Shown here piece after piece: positions 50,528 to 58,292 of a DNA stretch of 64,000 nt (the stretch's first letter is position 1; the number at the start of each line of letters is the position of its first letter). Origin of the DNA: Malaciobacter pacificus (GTDB taxonomy: Bacteria > Campylobacterota > Campylobacteria > Campylobacterales > Arcobacteraceae); contig NZ_CP035928.1 in the NCBI RefSeq assembly GCF_004214795.1, positions 1,488,001 to 1,552,000 of the forward strand, written 5' to 3'. Both the position numbers and the translations under genes were made by a program. Under the pieces are notes generated by a model that ran no database searches, was not told the origin of the DNA, and worked only from the letters and a program-made list of their open reading frames with translations.

Positions 50528-50551
50528 TAGGGTGAATTTACTTTCACCCTA
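50528..50551 (+). terminator. argG terminator
   Basis: TAGGGTGAA (50528-50536) pairs with TTCACCCTA (50543-50551) around a 6-base loop, starting 8 bp after the argG stop. It separates argG from the peptidase/ligase operon. Confidence 0.7.
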
Positions 50552-50649: not shown

Positions 50650-51738
50650 ATGAATTATCTAAATGATTTAGAACAACTGATTAAAATCAACTCATATACA
50701 AAAAATAAACAAGGTGTAGATGAAGTTTCAAAACTTATGTCTACTTGGCTTGAAGAATTAAACTTCTCAACTATTATCTATGAAAGAGAAAACATAGGTA
50801 ATCATATTTTATTTAAATCTACAAAAACTACAGGTACAAAAATACTACTTTTAGGACACAATGACACTGTTTTCCCACCTAATACTTATGAAGGTTTTTC
50901 AAAAGATGATAGATGGATTTATGGACCTGGTGTTTGTGATATGAAAGGTGGAAATATTGTTGCACTAGAATCACTTAGAAATTTATTTAATCAAAATGGA
51001 AAAATCGAAAATATTGACTTCTTATTAGTTAGTGATGAAGAGACAGGAAGTGATGATTCTAAATTACTTACAAGTGAACTTGCAAAAGATTATGATTTGT
51101 GTTTTGTTTTTGAAGCAGCTGGAGCAAATCTTGAAGTTGTTACAGCAAGAAAAGGTGTAGGAACTTTTAAAATAAATATTACTGGAATTGCTGCTCATGC
51201 TGGAAATCACTATGATAAAGGTAGTGATGCAAACTTAGAAGCTAGTTATAAACTGCAAGAACTAATAAAACTTACAAACCTTAAATTAGGAACTACTGTA
51301 AATGTAGGAAAAATTAATGGTGGTATTGGAGCAAATACTATTTCTCCTACTTGCGAATTACTTTTAGAGATTAGATATACAACAACAGATGAGAAAAATA
51401 GAGTTTTAGAAGCTTTAAAAACTATTACTAATACAGCTTATGTCAAGGGAACAACTTCTATTTTAAGTGGTGATATTCAAAGAGATGTTATGGAAGAAAA
51501 TAAAAAACAACTTGAACTTATAAAAGAGATTGAAAAAATTGCAGAGACAAAAATATTTACTGAAAAAAGAGGTGGTGTTAGTGATGCAAATATAGTATCA
51601 AGTTGTGGGGTAACTACACTTGATGGTTTTGGTCCATTTGGTGATGGAGACCATACTATTAAAGAAAGAGCATTAATAACCAGCTTTGAACAAAGAATTC
51701 AACTAATGACAAAAATATTAAATCACTATCAAATCTAA
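50650..51738 (+). CDS. M20-family metallopeptidase (CPG2/ArgE-like)
   Basis: I favour the ATG at 50650 (362 residues), which follows GGAAC by a good distance; an in-frame ATG at 50617 lacks a ribosome site and overlaps a possible -10. The di-zinc site is complete: His70 and Asp72 (LGHNDTVFPP), Asp97 (GVCDMKGG), catalytic Glu130-Glu131 (SDEETGS), and the final His in GDGDHTIKE. The lid/dimerisation domain lies about residues 170-280 (GIAAHAGNHYDKG). Relatives include glutamate carboxypeptidase G2, which removes C-terminal Glu. It is the first gene of a four-gene run with two ATP-grasp ligases and an M14 carboxypeptidase. Confidence 0.85.
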   Translation: MNYLNDLEQLIKINSYTKNKQGVDEVSKLMSTWLEELNFSTIIYERENIGNHILFKSTKTTGTKILLLGHNDTVFPPNTYEGFSKDDRWIYGPGVCDMKGGNIVALESLRNLFNQNGKIENIDFLLVSDEETGSDDSKLLTSELAKDYDLCFVFEAAGANLEVVTARKGVGTFKINITGIAAHAGNHYDKGSDANLEASYKLQELIKLTNLKLGTTVNVGKINGGIGANTISPTCELLLEIRYTTTDEKNRVLEALKTITNTAYVKGTTSILSGDIQRDVMEENKKQLELIKEIEKIAETKIFTEKRGGVSDANIVSSCGVTTLDGFGPFGDGDHTIKERALITSFEQRIQLMTKILNHYQI

Positions 51739-51754
51739 AAAGGAAGTAAACTAA

Positions 51755-52684
51755 ATGACAAAAAGAAAAATTGGTATGTGGCTATATCAAAATGGTGGTG
51801 GAGATAAAATCCAAAAAAAAATTATTAAACAGTTAAAAGATAGAGATATTGAAACTATTGCTAATCTTAATCTTAGAGATGCAATTGCAAAAAATGACCA
51901 TATAATTTATGATATTGATAATAGTAATATTAAATTAGATAAATTAGATTTATTCTTTTCTTACAATGCAGGTGAACAAACACCCTATCAAACTTTTTTA
52001 TATAAAGCTTTAAACAAAGTTATACCCATGATTAACTCTTATGAAGCTTTTGAATTAACAGAAGATAAATTCCAAACATCATTTTTTTTAAGACAGCATG
52101 GTATTAATACTGCTGATTATAAACTTTGTCATAGAGATGATGTTCACAGACTTAGTGATGTAATGAAAAAATGGAAAAAAATGGTTTATAAACCAACAGA
52201 TGGTTGGGGAGGAATTGGTTTAACAAAAATAGAAAATGAAGAAGCTTTAGATATGTTAATTCCATTTTTGAATCAAGTAAATTTAAAATATTTTTATGTA
52301 GAAAAATTTATAGATTACGATAACACAGATTATAGAATTGACATAGTTGATGGTAAATTTGTTGGATGCTATGGTAGAAAAGCAGCAAAGGGACATTGGA
52401 AAACAAATGTCACAAGTGGTGGAAGTGTATTTTTAAGAGAACCAAATGACGAAATTATTGAACTTGCAAAAAAAGTTACAAAATTAACAGGTTTAGACAT
52501 AGCTGGTGTAGATATTATTTATGATAGAAAAAAAGAAGAGTATGTTGTATTAGAAATAAATGGTATTCCAGCTTTTGCAACACCAGAACAAGAAAAAATG
52601 GGATTAGATTTCAATAATAAAAAAATAGAACTAATTGTTGATTTAATAGATAAAAAAACAAAAAATAAAGGGCTGTACAAATGA
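51755..52684 (+). CDS. RimK-like ATP-grasp ligase
   Basis: The 309-residue protein has a RimK/GshB-type ATP-grasp fold: an N-terminal domain, then VYKPTDGWGGIGL (ATP-binding Lys and Gly-rich loop, about 144-156). It then has DYRIDIVDGKFVGCYGR, WKTNVTSGGS, and the Mg2+ site VVLEINGIPAF (Glu and Asn, about 267-275). Such enzymes form an amide by activating a carboxylate as acyl-phosphate; RimK adds Glu to ribosomal protein S6 and others make peptides. AAAGGAAG precedes the ATG, 16 bp after the M20 gene. Its stop overlaps the next start (ATGA). Substrate unknown. Confidence 0.85.
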   Translation: MTKRKIGMWLYQNGGGDKIQKKIIKQLKDRDIETIANLNLRDAIAKNDHIIYDIDNSNIKLDKLDLFFSYNAGEQTPYQTFLYKALNKVIPMINSYEAFELTEDKFQTSFFLRQHGINTADYKLCHRDDVHRLSDVMKKWKKMVYKPTDGWGGIGLTKIENEEALDMLIPFLNQVNLKYFYVEKFIDYDNTDYRIDIVDGKFVGCYGRKAAKGHWKTNVTSGGSVFLREPNDEIIELAKKVTKLTGLDIAGVDIIYDRKKEEYVVLEINGIPAFATPEQEKMGLDFNNKKIELIVDLIDKKTKNKGLYK

Positions 52685-54183
52685 AAAAATTACCAAAAAT
52701 AGGACTACTATACTTAGATTATGTTTTAAGATTCTTTGATAAATCTAACTTCAAAGGTTGGAGTGATAAAATTGAAACTGTTACTTATCATTGGAAAAAT
52801 GATAAGGATAGATTTATTAAAGAAGTAAAAAAGAAGAAAATAGAAGTTCTTATTGGTAATATTCCAGCAACCGCTTATGATACTTTTGTAGAAATAGCAA
52901 AAGAATTACCAAATGTTAGATTTGTACCATCAATTGAATCTCAATTTGCAAATAAGTCAAAAGAAAATGTAACACTATTTTGTGAAAAATATAATTTATC
53001 AATACCAAAAACTAAAATTTTTTATGATAAGAAAAAGGGTATGAATTACCTAAAAAATAAAGCTTCATATCCACAGATTATTAAAAGAAGCTACGGTGCT
53101 TCTAATTATGGTGGTTACTATGTTCACAAAGTGGACAACTATAAAGAAGCAAAAACTCTTTTAGAAAATAAAAAATATAATCCTATTTATACTCAAAATG
53201 CAATTGATTTAAAGGATTCAGGTGATATTAGAGTAATGTTAATAGGACATAAACCAGTTTGTGCTTTTTGGAGATATTCAGGTAAAGACCAATGGATAAC
53301 AAATACAAGCCAAGGTGGTAGTATGAGTTATAAAAATGTTCCAATGAATGCACTTGAATTAGCAGTACAAGCAAGTAAAGCTGCGAAAGCTGAATATTAT
53401 GCTTGTGATATTGCTATTAGTGAAAAAACATCAAAAGCTTATATATTAGAGTGTGCAACAGCATTTGCAGCATTTCCTTATATTAGAGATTGGATTTGTC
53501 AATATATCATGTGGGACTTATCAAATGGAAAGTTTAAAAAACCACATGTTCCTTTATTCTCATGGGAAGAATTAGGAAAAATAGATTCTAGTTTATTAAG
53601 AACTATGAGGCATATTGGTTTTAGTAAATATAAACCAAGTTGTGATGGAGAGTATTTAATCAATGATAAGACAGATACTTATGAAATGGAACTAACTCAA
53701 CAAAGTTTACAAAGTGATGTTCCCAAAACAGTTTCTTTTGAAGATTTACCAATTAACATAAATAAACAATCAAAAAAAAGTACCAAAATTGAGTTAAAAA
53801 AGATTGATTTAAATTTTGCAACATTAACAGATTTAATGAGTCTATACGGGATGGAAGATGATTTAGCTTTTGAGATTGAAGAGTATTTAAAACACAATAT
53901 AATAACAGATATAACAGATTTATTAGAAATTGAATCTATTGATGAGAATATGATTAAAACTTGGGATAGCTACATAGATGATATGAGAGTTGATATCAAT
54001 AAAGTTAATATTGATACACTAAAAAAAATAAAAGGAATTGGTAGCAAGTTAGCAAAAATAATAATAGATTATAAAAAAGAAGTTGAAGAGATAAAATCAA
54101 TTGATGAACTAAAAAAACTTGAGGGTATTGGCAAAAATAAATTTGCTCAATTAAAATCAAGATTAGTTGTTATAGGAGAATAG
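52681..54183 (+). CDS. ATP-grasp ligase fused to ComEA-like helix-hairpin-helix repeats
   Basis: The 500-residue protein has an ATP-grasp domain (about 60-290). It contains IIKRSYGASNYGGYYVH, DIRVMLIGHKPVCAFWR and TNTSQGGSM, and the metal site YILECATAFAAF, where Cys-Ala replaces the Ile/Val-Asn of typical enzymes. After a linker, residues about 368-500 form two ComEA-like HhH units: a degenerate one (DLNFATLTDLMSLYGM) and a canonical one (DINKVNIDTLKKIKGIGSKL, LKKLEGIGKNKFAQLKSRL). HhH repeats usually bind DNA backbones. Fusion of a ligase to them is unusual. It overlaps the RimK-like gene by four bases and is followed 2 bp later by the M14 gene. Confidence 0.8.
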   Translation: MKKLPKIGLLYLDYVLRFFDKSNFKGWSDKIETVTYHWKNDKDRFIKEVKKKKIEVLIGNIPATAYDTFVEIAKELPNVRFVPSIESQFANKSKENVTLFCEKYNLSIPKTKIFYDKKKGMNYLKNKASYPQIIKRSYGASNYGGYYVHKVDNYKEAKTLLENKKYNPIYTQNAIDLKDSGDIRVMLIGHKPVCAFWRYSGKDQWITNTSQGGSMSYKNVPMNALELAVQASKAAKAEYYACDIAISEKTSKAYILECATAFAAFPYIRDWICQYIMWDLSNGKFKKPHVPLFSWEELGKIDSSLLRTMRHIGFSKYKPSCDGEYLINDKTDTYEMELTQQSLQSDVPKTVSFEDLPININKQSKKSTKIELKKIDLNFATLTDLMSLYGMEDDLAFEIEEYLKHNIITDITDLLEIESIDENMIKTWDSYIDDMRVDINKVNIDTLKKIKGIGSKLAKIIIDYKKEVEEIKSIDELKKLEGIGKNKFAQLKSRLVVIGE

Positions 54184-54185
54184 CT

Positions 54186-56771
54186 TTGAAACAACTATAT
54201 AGATCTTATGAAGATTCAACTTTAATTTTCAAAGAACTACAAAAAAGCTATCCTAAAAACTTTAAGTTAGAATCAATAGGTCAAACATGGGAAAAAAGAG
54301 ATATTAATTTGATTACTATTTCTAAAGATATAAAAACTGCAAATACAAGACCGGCTTTATTTTTTACAGGGACTATCCATGCAAGAGAATGGATAGGACA
54401 TGAATTAGCAATTGAGTTTGCTAAATATGTACTAGAAAATTTAGAAATAGATACCACACTACAAAAATATTTAGATGTAAGTACTATATATATGGTTCCT
54501 TGTGCTAATCCAGATGGATATGAATTTTCAAGAACACATTTTAGTTTTTGGAGGAAAAATAGAAGACAAAATGCAGATGGAACTTATGGTGTAGATTTAA
54601 ATAGAAACTTTCCTATTGGCTTTATAAAGTCTACTTCAACAACCTCAAATGTTTATGGGGGACCTGAACCTTTTAGTGAACCAGAAACAAAAGCACTTAG
54701 AGATTTTGTTTTAAATCATCCAAATATAACTATAGCCTTAGATTATCATTCACAAGGAAATGTATTTTTCCCAGCCCATGATTTTAGACATGAAGATACT
54801 ATAGATACAACAGATATGAATATTTTATGTGCAAATATGGCAGAAGAGATAAAAAAAATATCAGGCAGAGAATATGGAATTCATCAAGGAAAGCCTCCTG
54901 CTAAATTAATTTCTGGTAGTGGTAGAGAGTTTTACTATTCCCAAGGCATTATATCTACTGTTGTCGAAGTAGGAACTAGAAATATAAGTGATTATCTAGA
55001 AGATATGAATGAAAACTTTAGAGAACATATCCCTGCATTAATTCATGCTTTAAAAGAAACAGATAATTATTCGAAAGAAAATAGTGTTAAAAGAGTAGAA
55101 TCTTTTGATATCACTAGTGTGGGTTCGAACCATGTAGATTTAAAATGGGAATATGATTTACAAGATAATATATATTTTGAAATTTATAGAAGTGATAAAA
55201 ATAAGAGTTATTGTAATAGCTCAAATTTAATTGCAAAAATAAAATCTTTAGAATTTAGTGATATTAATTTAGATTCAAATAAAGATTACTTTTATAATAT
55301 TAGAGCTGTAAATAAACAAACAAATGAAAAATCTCCTTTCTTTCCTCAAATAAAAGTTAGAACATTAGTTGAATATGATGAATATAGTAGAACTTATTAT
55401 GCCAACTCAAAAGGAACTGGATATGTAGCAGAAAACATAACAAATAATGCAAATCACTTTGGAGTAAATTCATTATTTGTTGGAGTGGATGAAAATAAAG
55501 GGATATCTTATGCAATAGTATCAATAAATCTAAATTCATTACCCTCAAATGCAATTATAAAATCTGCTTCATTAAATCTTTACCCAATTAATAGAGTTTC
55601 TACAACTATTGAAAAGTATGGTGAATGGAATGTTGGAATAGTAAATCAAGATACAATGGGTGACATTACAAGTTATGAAGATGTTGAAAATATGCAAATT
55701 GTAAAATATATAGGAAGACCTACTGAATCACACCAATTAACACAAGGAATATGGCGAAATTGGACATTATCTGGAATTGAATGTAAAAGTTTAAAAGATA
55801 ATATTAGAAATAATATAATTGTATTTAGAATAGAAGGTCCTAAAGAGTTAAAAGTTGGTAGAAATAGACAAATGATGCAATGGGATATAGGTTATGGAAA
55901 ATTTGGTTTTGGTTTAAATTATAGACCAAGGTTAGAATTAACATATACAATAGAACCAACAATTACAACTTTGTATCCAAAAGAGATAAATACAATTAGT
56001 AAAAATGAACATAAAGAGAATATTGCTATTTCAGGTTTTGATAAAAATGGTTCTAAAATTTATTCATCTTTTGAATTTAACTTATCTTCTTTACCCCCAT
56101 ATAATGACACAATGATAACAAAAGCATATTTTGAACTTAACTCTACAAAAATTTATATAAAAGATGATATTCGATTTCATTTAGAGTTTATAGATTCAAA
56201 TATAGATAAAGATTATAATAAAATTGCAAATAGAGAGATTTTGCAAAATATTGGATATGATGTTAGTGCAATTGAGTTAAAAAATAATCAAACTCAATAC
56301 TTTTTATTTGATTCATTTTCAGAAAGAATGTTAAATGAAAAACTAAATGAAAAAGCTGATATATCATTTATTCTGAACCCTACATCTTCAAAAAAAGGAA
56401 TAAAAGACAAAAAAGTATCTTGGGAGATAAAAAACCAGACTTTAAGTCCAAAACTAATCATTGAACACATTCCAAAAAGAAGGTTTCCATTAAAAAGTGT
56501 TACAAATCTTAAAACAATTGTTGAAAATGGAAAAATAAAACTTACATGGAAAAATCCATCTAATAACTCTCTAGTTGGAGTAAAAGTAATTAAAAATCCT
56601 CATAGAAAACCTATAAATCATCAAGATGGAACAAAAATATATGCAGGGAAAGATGACTATACATTTGATGACTTTGGGGCAAAAGATATAAATAAATATT
56701 ATGCTGTATTTACATATGATAATGTTCCAAACTATTCTGAAGCTACTATAGTTGAATATAAAGCTAAATAA
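54186..56771 (+). CDS. M14 zinc carboxypeptidase with FN3-like and two DNRLRE-like beta domains, no signal peptide
   Basis: The 861-residue protein starts at a TTG six bases after GGAGA. The M14 domain (1-295) is complete: zinc ligands His65/Glu68 (GTIHAREWIG) and His188 (DYHSQG), substrate Arg140 (DLNRNFP) and catalytic Glu261 (VVEVGT). An FN3-like domain (about 303-392) follows, then a DNRLRE-like beta domain (about 398-592, with WNVGIVNQDTMGD and YRPRLELTY). A second related domain (about 594-770) and a final FN3-like domain (about 775-861, KLTWKNPSNNSL) complete it. These accessory domains are usually extracellular, yet there is no signal peptide and none upstream in frame. It presumably removes C-terminal residues, perhaps those added by the ligases. 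Confidence 0.85.
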   Translation: MKQLYRSYEDSTLIFKELQKSYPKNFKLESIGQTWEKRDINLITISKDIKTANTRPALFFTGTIHAREWIGHELAIEFAKYVLENLEIDTTLQKYLDVSTIYMVPCANPDGYEFSRTHFSFWRKNRRQNADGTYGVDLNRNFPIGFIKSTSTTSNVYGGPEPFSEPETKALRDFVLNHPNITIALDYHSQGNVFFPAHDFRHEDTIDTTDMNILCANMAEEIKKISGREYGIHQGKPPAKLISGSGREFYYSQGIISTVVEVGTRNISDYLEDMNENFREHIPALIHALKETDNYSKENSVKRVESFDITSVGSNHVDLKWEYDLQDNIYFEIYRSDKNKSYCNSSNLIAKIKSLEFSDINLDSNKDYFYNIRAVNKQTNEKSPFFPQIKVRTLVEYDEYSRTYYANSKGTGYVAENITNNANHFGVNSLFVGVDENKGISYAIVSINLNSLPSNAIIKSASLNLYPINRVSTTIEKYGEWNVGIVNQDTMGDITSYEDVENMQIVKYIGRPTESHQLTQGIWRNWTLSGIECKSLKDNIRNNIIVFRIEGPKELKVGRNRQMMQWDIGYGKFGFGLNYRPRLELTYTIEPTITTLYPKEINTISKNEHKENIAISGFDKNGSKIYSSFEFNLSSLPPYNDTMITKAYFELNSTKIYIKDDIRFHLEFIDSNIDKDYNKIANREILQNIGYDVSAIELKNNQTQYFLFDSFSERMLNEKLNEKADISFILNPTSSKKGIKDKKVSWEIKNQTLSPKLIIEHIPKRRFPLKSVTNLKTIVENGKIKLTWKNPSNNSLVGVKVIKNPHRKPINHQDGTKIYAGKDDYTFDDFGAKDINKYYAVFTYDNVPNYSEATIVEYKAK

Positions 56772-56784
56772 TTAGCTTTATATT
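56755..56784 (+). terminator. strong terminator of the peptidase/ligase operon
   Basis: AATATAAAGCTAA (56755-56767) pairs perfectly with TTAGCTTTATATT (56772-56784) across loop ATAA. The 13-bp stem overlaps the M14 stop codon and is followed by a T-run at 56795-56801. It marks the operon end. Confidence 0.75.
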
Positions 56785-56812
56785 TAACCTTGCATTTTTT
56801 TACTTCACAAGT

Positions 56813-57348: not shown

Positions 57349-57373
57349 AATAATAGGTTTAAAACCTATTATT
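57349..57373. terminator. bidirectional terminator
   Basis: AATAATAGGTT (57349-57359) pairs with AACCTATTATT (57363-57373) across loop TAA. An 11-bp stem between the convergent carbonic anhydrase and dUTPase genes. Confidence 0.75.
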
Positions 57374-58292
57374 TACAACTATTGTAAGCATCTTCTAATT
57401 TTGAATATAAATCATCAAAACTAACATCATCCATTTTTTCTAAGATATCTACCATCACAACATTATCTTCTTTACCATTCCACTGTTTTATATAAGTTCC
57501 CTCTTTATATCCATGGTCTTGTCTAAATTGATTTAAACAATTTTTACCAATATATAATTTTTGTAACCACATAAATGACAATCCAGAAATTTTACAACAT
57601 CTAAAGAATTGATCAATAAATCTTTCAACCCCACTAAATGATGGCATATTTCCTGTATCAATTGCTAAAGCTATATAAGATAATTTTTCAGCCTCAGTCA
57701 TCATGAATTTCACATCTACTTCAGTTACTGCTTCATAAATACAATGTGTATTTACTAAAGATACTGCTTTTGGTACATTTGTTTCTTGTAAAATATAAGA
57801 CATTAAGAAGTGCCAAATATCAACTAATTCAACATGAATATTATTCATATCTGGCTCAGAATTGATATTTTTCCAGTGTTTCCATGGAGTTGATTCAATT
57901 AATTCTGCAACTTCCATATGAATACATCTAAGCCAATTTATCTCTTTTCCAAACTTATTAATACCAAGCTCCCAGTTTTTACCATTAGTAGAGTCATTAA
58001 GCTTTTTTTGCAATAAGAACATCTCTTCTAATTTATGGGGAAAAGATGAAGCTTCATCTAAAAGCGTTGCTAAAGGTAAACACTCTTCAACTACATTATC
58101 TAAAGAAGAGGTACTAGGTAACTCTTTTTCTCCTTTTAACAAATGTAAAACTAGTGAAACAATATAAGGTACTTGATTTTTATCTTCCCAGTCTAAAACT
58201 TCATCAGATGTTACACCAGCATATTTTATAAAATCTTCCATAGTATTAAATCCTAAAGATTTAATACTCTCTTTAAACTCTTTATATAACAA
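57369..58292 (-). CDS. all-alpha (dimeric) dUTP diphosphatase with N-terminal HTH-like domain
   Basis: The catalytic part (about 75-307) is a dimeric dUTPase of the Campylobacter/Leishmania type. Its Mg2+ motifs are EEMFLLQKKLNDSTNGKNW, EINWLRCIHMEVAELIEST (ExxE-like) and HVELVDIWHFLMS (ExxD). FMWLQKLYIGKNCLNQFRQD near residue 245 is typical. It keeps uracil out of DNA by hydrolysing dUTP. The first 70 residues (FKESIKSLGFNTMEDFIKYA, SDEVLDWEDKNQVPYIVSLV) resemble the small lambda-repressor-like HTH found in many proteins of this phylum. The fusion makes the protein about 75 residues longer than the usual enzyme. It ends the recR-distal run. Confidence 0.8.
   Translation of the reverse strand: MLYKEFKESIKSLGFNTMEDFIKYAGVTSDEVLDWEDKNQVPYIVSLVLHLLKGEKELPSTSSLDNVVEECLPLATLLDEASSFPHKLEEMFLLQKKLNDSTNGKNWELGINKFGKEINWLRCIHMEVAELIESTPWKHWKNINSEPDMNNIHVELVDIWHFLMSYILQETNVPKAVSLVNTHCIYEAVTEVDVKFMMTEAEKLSYIALAIDTGNMPSFSGVERFIDQFFRCCKISGLSFMWLQKLYIGKNCLNQFRQDHGYKEGTYIKQWNGKEDNVVMVDILEKMDDVSFDDLYSKLEDAYNSCK

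Follow-up and report, generated by a model that had tools for sequence, protein, structure and literature searches.

The window considered here is a 64,000-nucleotide stretch of the 2.66-Mb single-contig genome of Malaciobacter pacificus (bases 1488001–1552000), and it encodes a compact set of four genes on the forward strand, hereafter the module, in which two proteins of ATP-grasp ligase fold are combined with two metallo-carboxypeptidases. The module begins with an M20 peptidase of 362 aa (50650–51738; Pfam Peptidase_M20 and M20_dimer), followed by AG1, a RimK/MptN-like ATP-grasp ligase of 309 aa (51755–52684; Pfam RimK), AG2, a 500-aa protein with an ATP-grasp domain of RimK/LysX fold and a C-terminal helix-hairpin-helix (HhH) region (52681–54183; Pfam RimK and HHH_3), and an M14 zinc carboxypeptidase of the A/B/O type with a TTG start codon (54186–56771; Pfam Peptidase_M14). 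The M20 and AG1 genes are separated by 16 bp, AG1 and AG2 share a 4-nt ATGA overlap, and the M14 gene follows AG2 after 2 bp. A first-pass annotation of this DNA had described the same set with these spacings, which match exactly on coordinates, and had named the protein kinds (M20, RimK-like, ATP-grasp/HhH, and M14) with which Pfam agrees. The M20 gene has an alternative start at an upstream ATG (50617), and relatives favor the Met at 50650. None of the four proteins carries a signal peptide, as had also been noted at first pass, and the catalytic fold begins at the N-terminus in each.

The four genes occur together almost without exception. Profile searches (E ≤ 1e-60) of 298 Campylobacterota genomes of high completeness identified AG1 and AG2 in 31 genomes each and the M20 and M14 genes in 32 each. 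All four are present in 30 genomes and none in 264, and just four genomes hold a subset: G007 (AG2 and M14), G044 (M20 and AG1), G293 (M14 only), and G108 (M20 only). The module-positive genomes, many of them from free-living Campylobacterota, belong to seven families, with a patchy distribution inside families and genera. Because these genomes are related by descent and their counts are not independent events, the argument for a module rests on this patchiness and on the changing flanks; two neighbors that recur, argG on the upstream side and a gene for a gamma-carbonic anhydrase on the downstream side, do so only in the family of the window. All four genes are present in 74 of the loci drawn from the neighborhoods of 60 relatives and from 80 named GTDB loci (Nitratiruptor, Sulfurovum, and other Campylobacterota); they are clustered in 72 of these, with the M20 gene co-directional in 18 and divergent or otherwise oriented in 54. 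No constant fifth gene (transporter, tailoring enzyme, precursor peptide, or regulator) was found across approximately 110 loci. Departures from the arrangement include AG2 genes relocated away from the module (G051 and G172) and a module broken between AG2 and M14 (G011). AG2 is encoded at 330 places in one genome collection. In one small-genome genus the module is broken in several ways, as if its loss were ongoing: AG2 and M14 alone remain at one locus (G007), AG2 is missing at another where M20, AG1, and M14 are kept (L081 in G024), and a third has M14 with just an AG1 fragment at the contig edge (L083 in G036).

A further copy was found by tblastn against plasmids, on a 2.1-Mb replicon of the marine Photobacterium sp. 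DA100, where AG2 (65% identity in the ATP-grasp part), AG1 (53%), and M14 (46%) are adjacent. The M20 gene is divergent and adjoins AG1 with overlapping starts, which is the arrangement of the Sulfurovum/Nitratiruptor type, and the flanks are unrelated. In midpoint-rooted trees of M20, AG1, and M14, the Photobacterium protein is nested in Campylobacterota (support of approximately 0.83–1.0, at different nodes), although its exact sister group in the M14 tree is unsupported; in the midpoint-rooted AG2 tree, the Photobacterium sequence lies near the root. A simple reading of these trees is that the module may have been transferred as a unit from a source outside this sample. Co-occurrence and adjacency amongst Campylobacterota had been proposed at first pass as a check, and the 30 complete against four partial genomes, the clustering, and the copy in a second phylum bear the proposal out: the four genes are a conserved and occasionally transferred functional unit. 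Within this unit, the distance correlation is tightest between AG2 and M14 (r = 0.92), compared with r = 0.67 for M20 and AG1. Together with the gene order M20-AG1-AG2-M14 and the half-modules of G044 and G007, this correlation gives a hint, to be taken as a lead only, that AG1 may be paired with M20 and AG2 with M14, one carboxypeptidase per ligase. A strict pairing rule is argued against by G024, which keeps M20, AG1, and M14 but shows no AG2.

The catalytic domain of the M14 protein (residues 1–297) matches carboxypeptidases A4, B, O, and T, with structural Z-scores of approximately 33–34. Its HARE motif, R123, N139-R140, H188, and E261 are invariant, and these residues correspond to the markers of the A/B subfamily (CPA/CPB/CPO, carboxypeptidases A, B, and O), namely the zinc ligands and the equivalents of Arg127, Asn144, Arg145, and Glu270. 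The first-pass comparison to cytosolic carboxypeptidases (CCP, M14D) is rejected, as the zinc motif of CCP enzymes is His-Pro-Gly-Glu (HPGE; PMC3940198) and all sequences of the module enzyme have HARE instead. In a profile alignment, Arg247 is located at the position of CPA residue 255 (GSGREF versus GSSIDW), and it is invariant both in an alignment of 43 M14 sequences and in Photobacterium. Position 255 sets the specificity of these enzymes, and Arg255 confers a preference for acidic C-termini in carboxypeptidase O and Xenopus Cpo.1 (PMC9925722). Based on the invariant Arg at this position, the M14 enzyme is predicted to remove C-terminal Glu or Asp. Its start position is the same amongst relatives, without a pro-domain, and the remaining 560 residues form an fn3-like domain, two jelly-roll domains (DNRLRE), and a second fn3-like domain. 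The enzyme therefore resembles carboxypeptidase O in being a CPA-type M14 that has no pro-domain and has Arg at position 255, but differs in being bacterial, in lacking a signal peptide, and in its long C-terminal fn3 and jelly-roll part.

The nearest solved structure to the M20 peptidase is carboxypeptidase G2 (CPG2, an M20A enzyme; 1cg2, E = 6e-38), in keeping with the CPG2-like assignment made at first pass, and its zinc ligands and catalytic Glu align with those of CPG2. In contrast to CPG2, the module enzyme has no signal peptide, is linked to ligases, and scores below the cut-off of the NCBIfam glutamate carboxypeptidase family NF004788 (187 bits against 349). As a CPG2-like M20 protein, it is compatible with the removal of glutamate. 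In one module-negative genome (G004:C22:26172–34507), four M20-family genes with 26–29% identity to the window M20 lie within 8 kb.

By sequence and by fold, the closest relatives of AG1 and AG2 are RimK, LysX/ArgX, and MptN, and both proteins fall below the cut-off of the RimK family TIGR00768 (143.4 bits), AG1 with 127 and AG2 with 74 bits. The top curated match of AG1 is MptN, the tetrahydromethanopterin glutamate ligase, at 143 bits against a cut-off of 350. The metal-binding E-x-N motif of AG1 is intact, with E267 and N269 invariant. The predicted model of AG2 has good confidence across most of the ATP-grasp core and is closest to RimK and ArgX/LysX (Z of approximately 20–21 over 253–269 residues, rmsd 3.1–3.6). 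However, its motif (E257-C-A259) reads ECATAF in every aligned sequence, with the Glu kept and the Asn replaced by Ala. The activity of AG2 is in doubt because this Asn is always missing, and the protein may still work as a ligase or may be a non-catalytic partner. The description of the catalytic residues as largely intact in the first-pass annotation consequently holds for M20, AG1, and M14 (apart from the equivalent of CPA Tyr248), and only in part for AG2. Additional AG1-like ligases were observed at L061:6173–7123 and L090:7552–8478, one immediately before a module and the other distant, beside a cold-shock-like gene.

The C-terminal region of AG2 (53791–54177, + strand) is a ComEA-like HHH_3 domain with the hairpin GIGxK at residues 452–456. 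The tail is of the HHH_3 type in most of the window's family and of the HHH_5 type in others, and its Pfam match is weak or absent in the Photobacterium AG2 and in one Nitratiruptor-like AG2. Of 100 AG2 sequences, 91 have a GhGxK-like hairpin and eight an LGxx-type variant, and the remaining sequence is missing its final part. HhH domains commonly bind the DNA backbone, and some bind proteins. The tail thus suggests contact of AG2 with nucleic acid. A related domain stands alone in genome G017, where the main module is directly followed (L063:12702–14068) by a second AG1 copy and then a 145-aa HHH_3 protein with 44% identity to the AG2 tail.

The module is flanked by two hairpins, which had been annotated at first pass as terminators. 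The hairpin at the M14 end (56751–56788, + strand) has a 17-bp stem that includes a 13-bp perfect stem, with a z-score of −5.7 against shuffled sequences and a U tract displaced by several bases, and is a probable terminator. The hairpin 3′ of argG (50528–50551) is weaker, with a z-score of −3.4, and on the + strand no U tract lies next to it. The hairpins themselves are confirmed, and terminator function is plausible for both but not proven, because a consensus scan counted no more terminator-like sites than in shuffled sequences (2 versus 2.2). Further downstream, a dUTPase_2-family protein (57369–58292, − strand) has approximately 85 additional N-terminal residues, with the Pfam match starting at residue 87.

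We tentatively favor the reading that the four genes form a self-contained cytosolic module that adds amino acids, most likely Glu or Asp, to a macromolecular substrate and removes them again. This reading is based on two genes of ligase type and two of carboxypeptidase type that co-occur almost exactly and cluster, in Photobacterium as well, while no further gene accompanies them constantly. The Arg247 of M14, the likeness of M20 to CPG2 and of the ligases to RimK, LysX/ArgX, and MptN, the retention of the HhH tail in two Pfam types, and the stand-alone HhH protein in G017 also count for it. In the mechanism we infer, AG1, with AG2 if it is active, would form an amide bond between a carboxylate of the substrate and an incoming acidic amino acid at the expense of ATP, as RimK does, and the M14 enzyme would run in the opposite direction, trimming C-terminal acidic residues back off. 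The CPG2-like M20 enzyme may take off the residue nearest the acceptor or hydrolyze small products, and the HhH tail of AG2 may recruit the ligases to DNA or to a protein bound to it. As the HhH domain sits on a ligase, we lean slightly towards a macromolecular, DNA-associated target. A narrower version, in which the module writes and erases acidic tails on a DNA-associated protein, with one ligase held on DNA by its HhH domain and with the pairs AG1-M20 and AG2-M14, is unlikely as a whole.

Several points weigh against the reading of reversible modification of a macromolecule. No substrate was found for the module, in an analysis that did not extend to a screen of the proteome for acidic-tailed candidates. 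M20 enzymes mostly act on small molecules, and jelly-roll and fn3 domains are commoner in secreted proteins. HhH domains can bind proteins as well as DNA, AG2 lacks the metal-binding Asn and is possibly non-catalytic, and the equivalent of CPA Tyr248 is not conserved in M14. The classical target of RimK is the C-terminus of ribosomal protein S6. In the window genome, S6 ends in ...EEAAKKAN, without a Glu acceptor, and it ends in ...AAKKAN or similar, with no Glu tail, in members of the window's family both with and without the module; acidic S6 tails are present in some other module-positive families. The S6 C-termini accordingly lend no support to S6 as a substrate via a Glu-ended tail.

The chemistry with the best support is the ligation and removal of acidic amino acids, and sequence cannot separate protein tagging from the synthesis of a metabolite or polymer. 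It is quite possible that AG1 and AG2 make a metabolite, either a short acidic peptide or a cofactor or other small molecule to which they add glutamate, and that M20 and M14 then process or recycle it, since the top curated match of AG1 is MptN, the CPG2 that M20 most resembles cleaves folate, other ATP-grasp peptide pathways have dedicated peptidases, and the module is a small movable gene set with no constant target gene. AG1 is far under the cut-offs of the MptN/CofF families of methanopterin and F420 synthesis and no genes for these cofactors are linked to the module. Against a metabolite pathway, the module has no constant neighbor that encodes a transporter, a tailoring enzyme, a regulator, or a precursor peptide, and the HhH domain of a ligase and the 560 extra residues of the carboxypeptidase would be hard to explain. 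The ligases may instead produce poly-alpha-glutamate or a related storage or osmolyte polymer, with M14 shortening its C-terminus and M20 splitting the last oligopeptides. RimK-fold enzymes are capable of poly-alpha-glutamate synthesis (5zct title), acidic chains would suit both peptidases, and the module is partner-independent and patchily distributed, but no association with stress or storage genes was seen and an HhH domain is not expected in this role, which makes a polymer rather improbable.

A LysW-type route, in which the ligases would attach an amino acid to a carrier protein and M20 would release the product, is far less probable. AG2 is structurally nearest to LysX/ArgX and RimK, and M20 hydrolases operate in the LysW pathway, yet the LysW family was found in none of 13 module-positive genomes, with positive controls in Thermus, Deinobacterium, Haloferax, and Sulfolobus, and no kinase, reductase, or aminotransferase gene is linked to the module. 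The LysW-recognizing motif GSWGR (PMC10433800) was not seen in AG1 or AG2 either. With LysW absent from those genomes and S6 lacking a Glu tail in the window's family, neither is a likely substrate. Three other candidates were rejected: an anti-phage defense system, as no PADLOC model matched at E up to 1; a phage-borne module, as no relatives were found in viral contigs or phage records; and a graspetide (RiPP) route, as the loci lack a precursor gene and match no graspetide families.

Reversible tagging by pairs of ligases and carboxypeptidases is well studied on eukaryotic tubulin, and to our knowledge few such systems are known in bacteria, with RimK acting on S6 as the main example. The module resembles the RimK/RimA/RimB system of Pseudomonas, which adds a glutamate tail to S6, in the grouping of a RimK-fold ligase with a tail-regulating protease. 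It differs in having two ligase-fold proteins, an HhH domain, an S6 without a Glu tail, and two metallo-carboxypeptidases in place of a retropepsin-like protease. With TTLL and CCP enzymes on tubulin it shares an ATP-grasp writer and an M14 eraser of (predicted) acidic specificity, but its M14 is CPA/CPO-like with HARE, there is no tubulin partner, and it has an additional M20 peptidase. The first-pass proposal that these genes write and erase amino-acid tags on a protein, or make and recycle a peptide metabolite, is partly supported, by their linkage, the acidic-type Arg, the CPG2-like M20, and ligases nearest to glutamate-type enzymes; its two branches are not separated, no substrate was found, the M14 is not of the CCP type then in mind, and AG2 is possibly inactive. 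Full-text literature searches retrieved no paper on the four-gene set, although a 2009 survey of amidoligases (Iyer et al.), which perhaps contains similar neighborhoods, was outside the search. Occurring in two phyla and combining predicted acidic-specific trimming with a ligase domain of nucleic-acid-binding type, the module would represent something new in either case, a bacterial system for modifying proteins or a pathway of acidic peptides.

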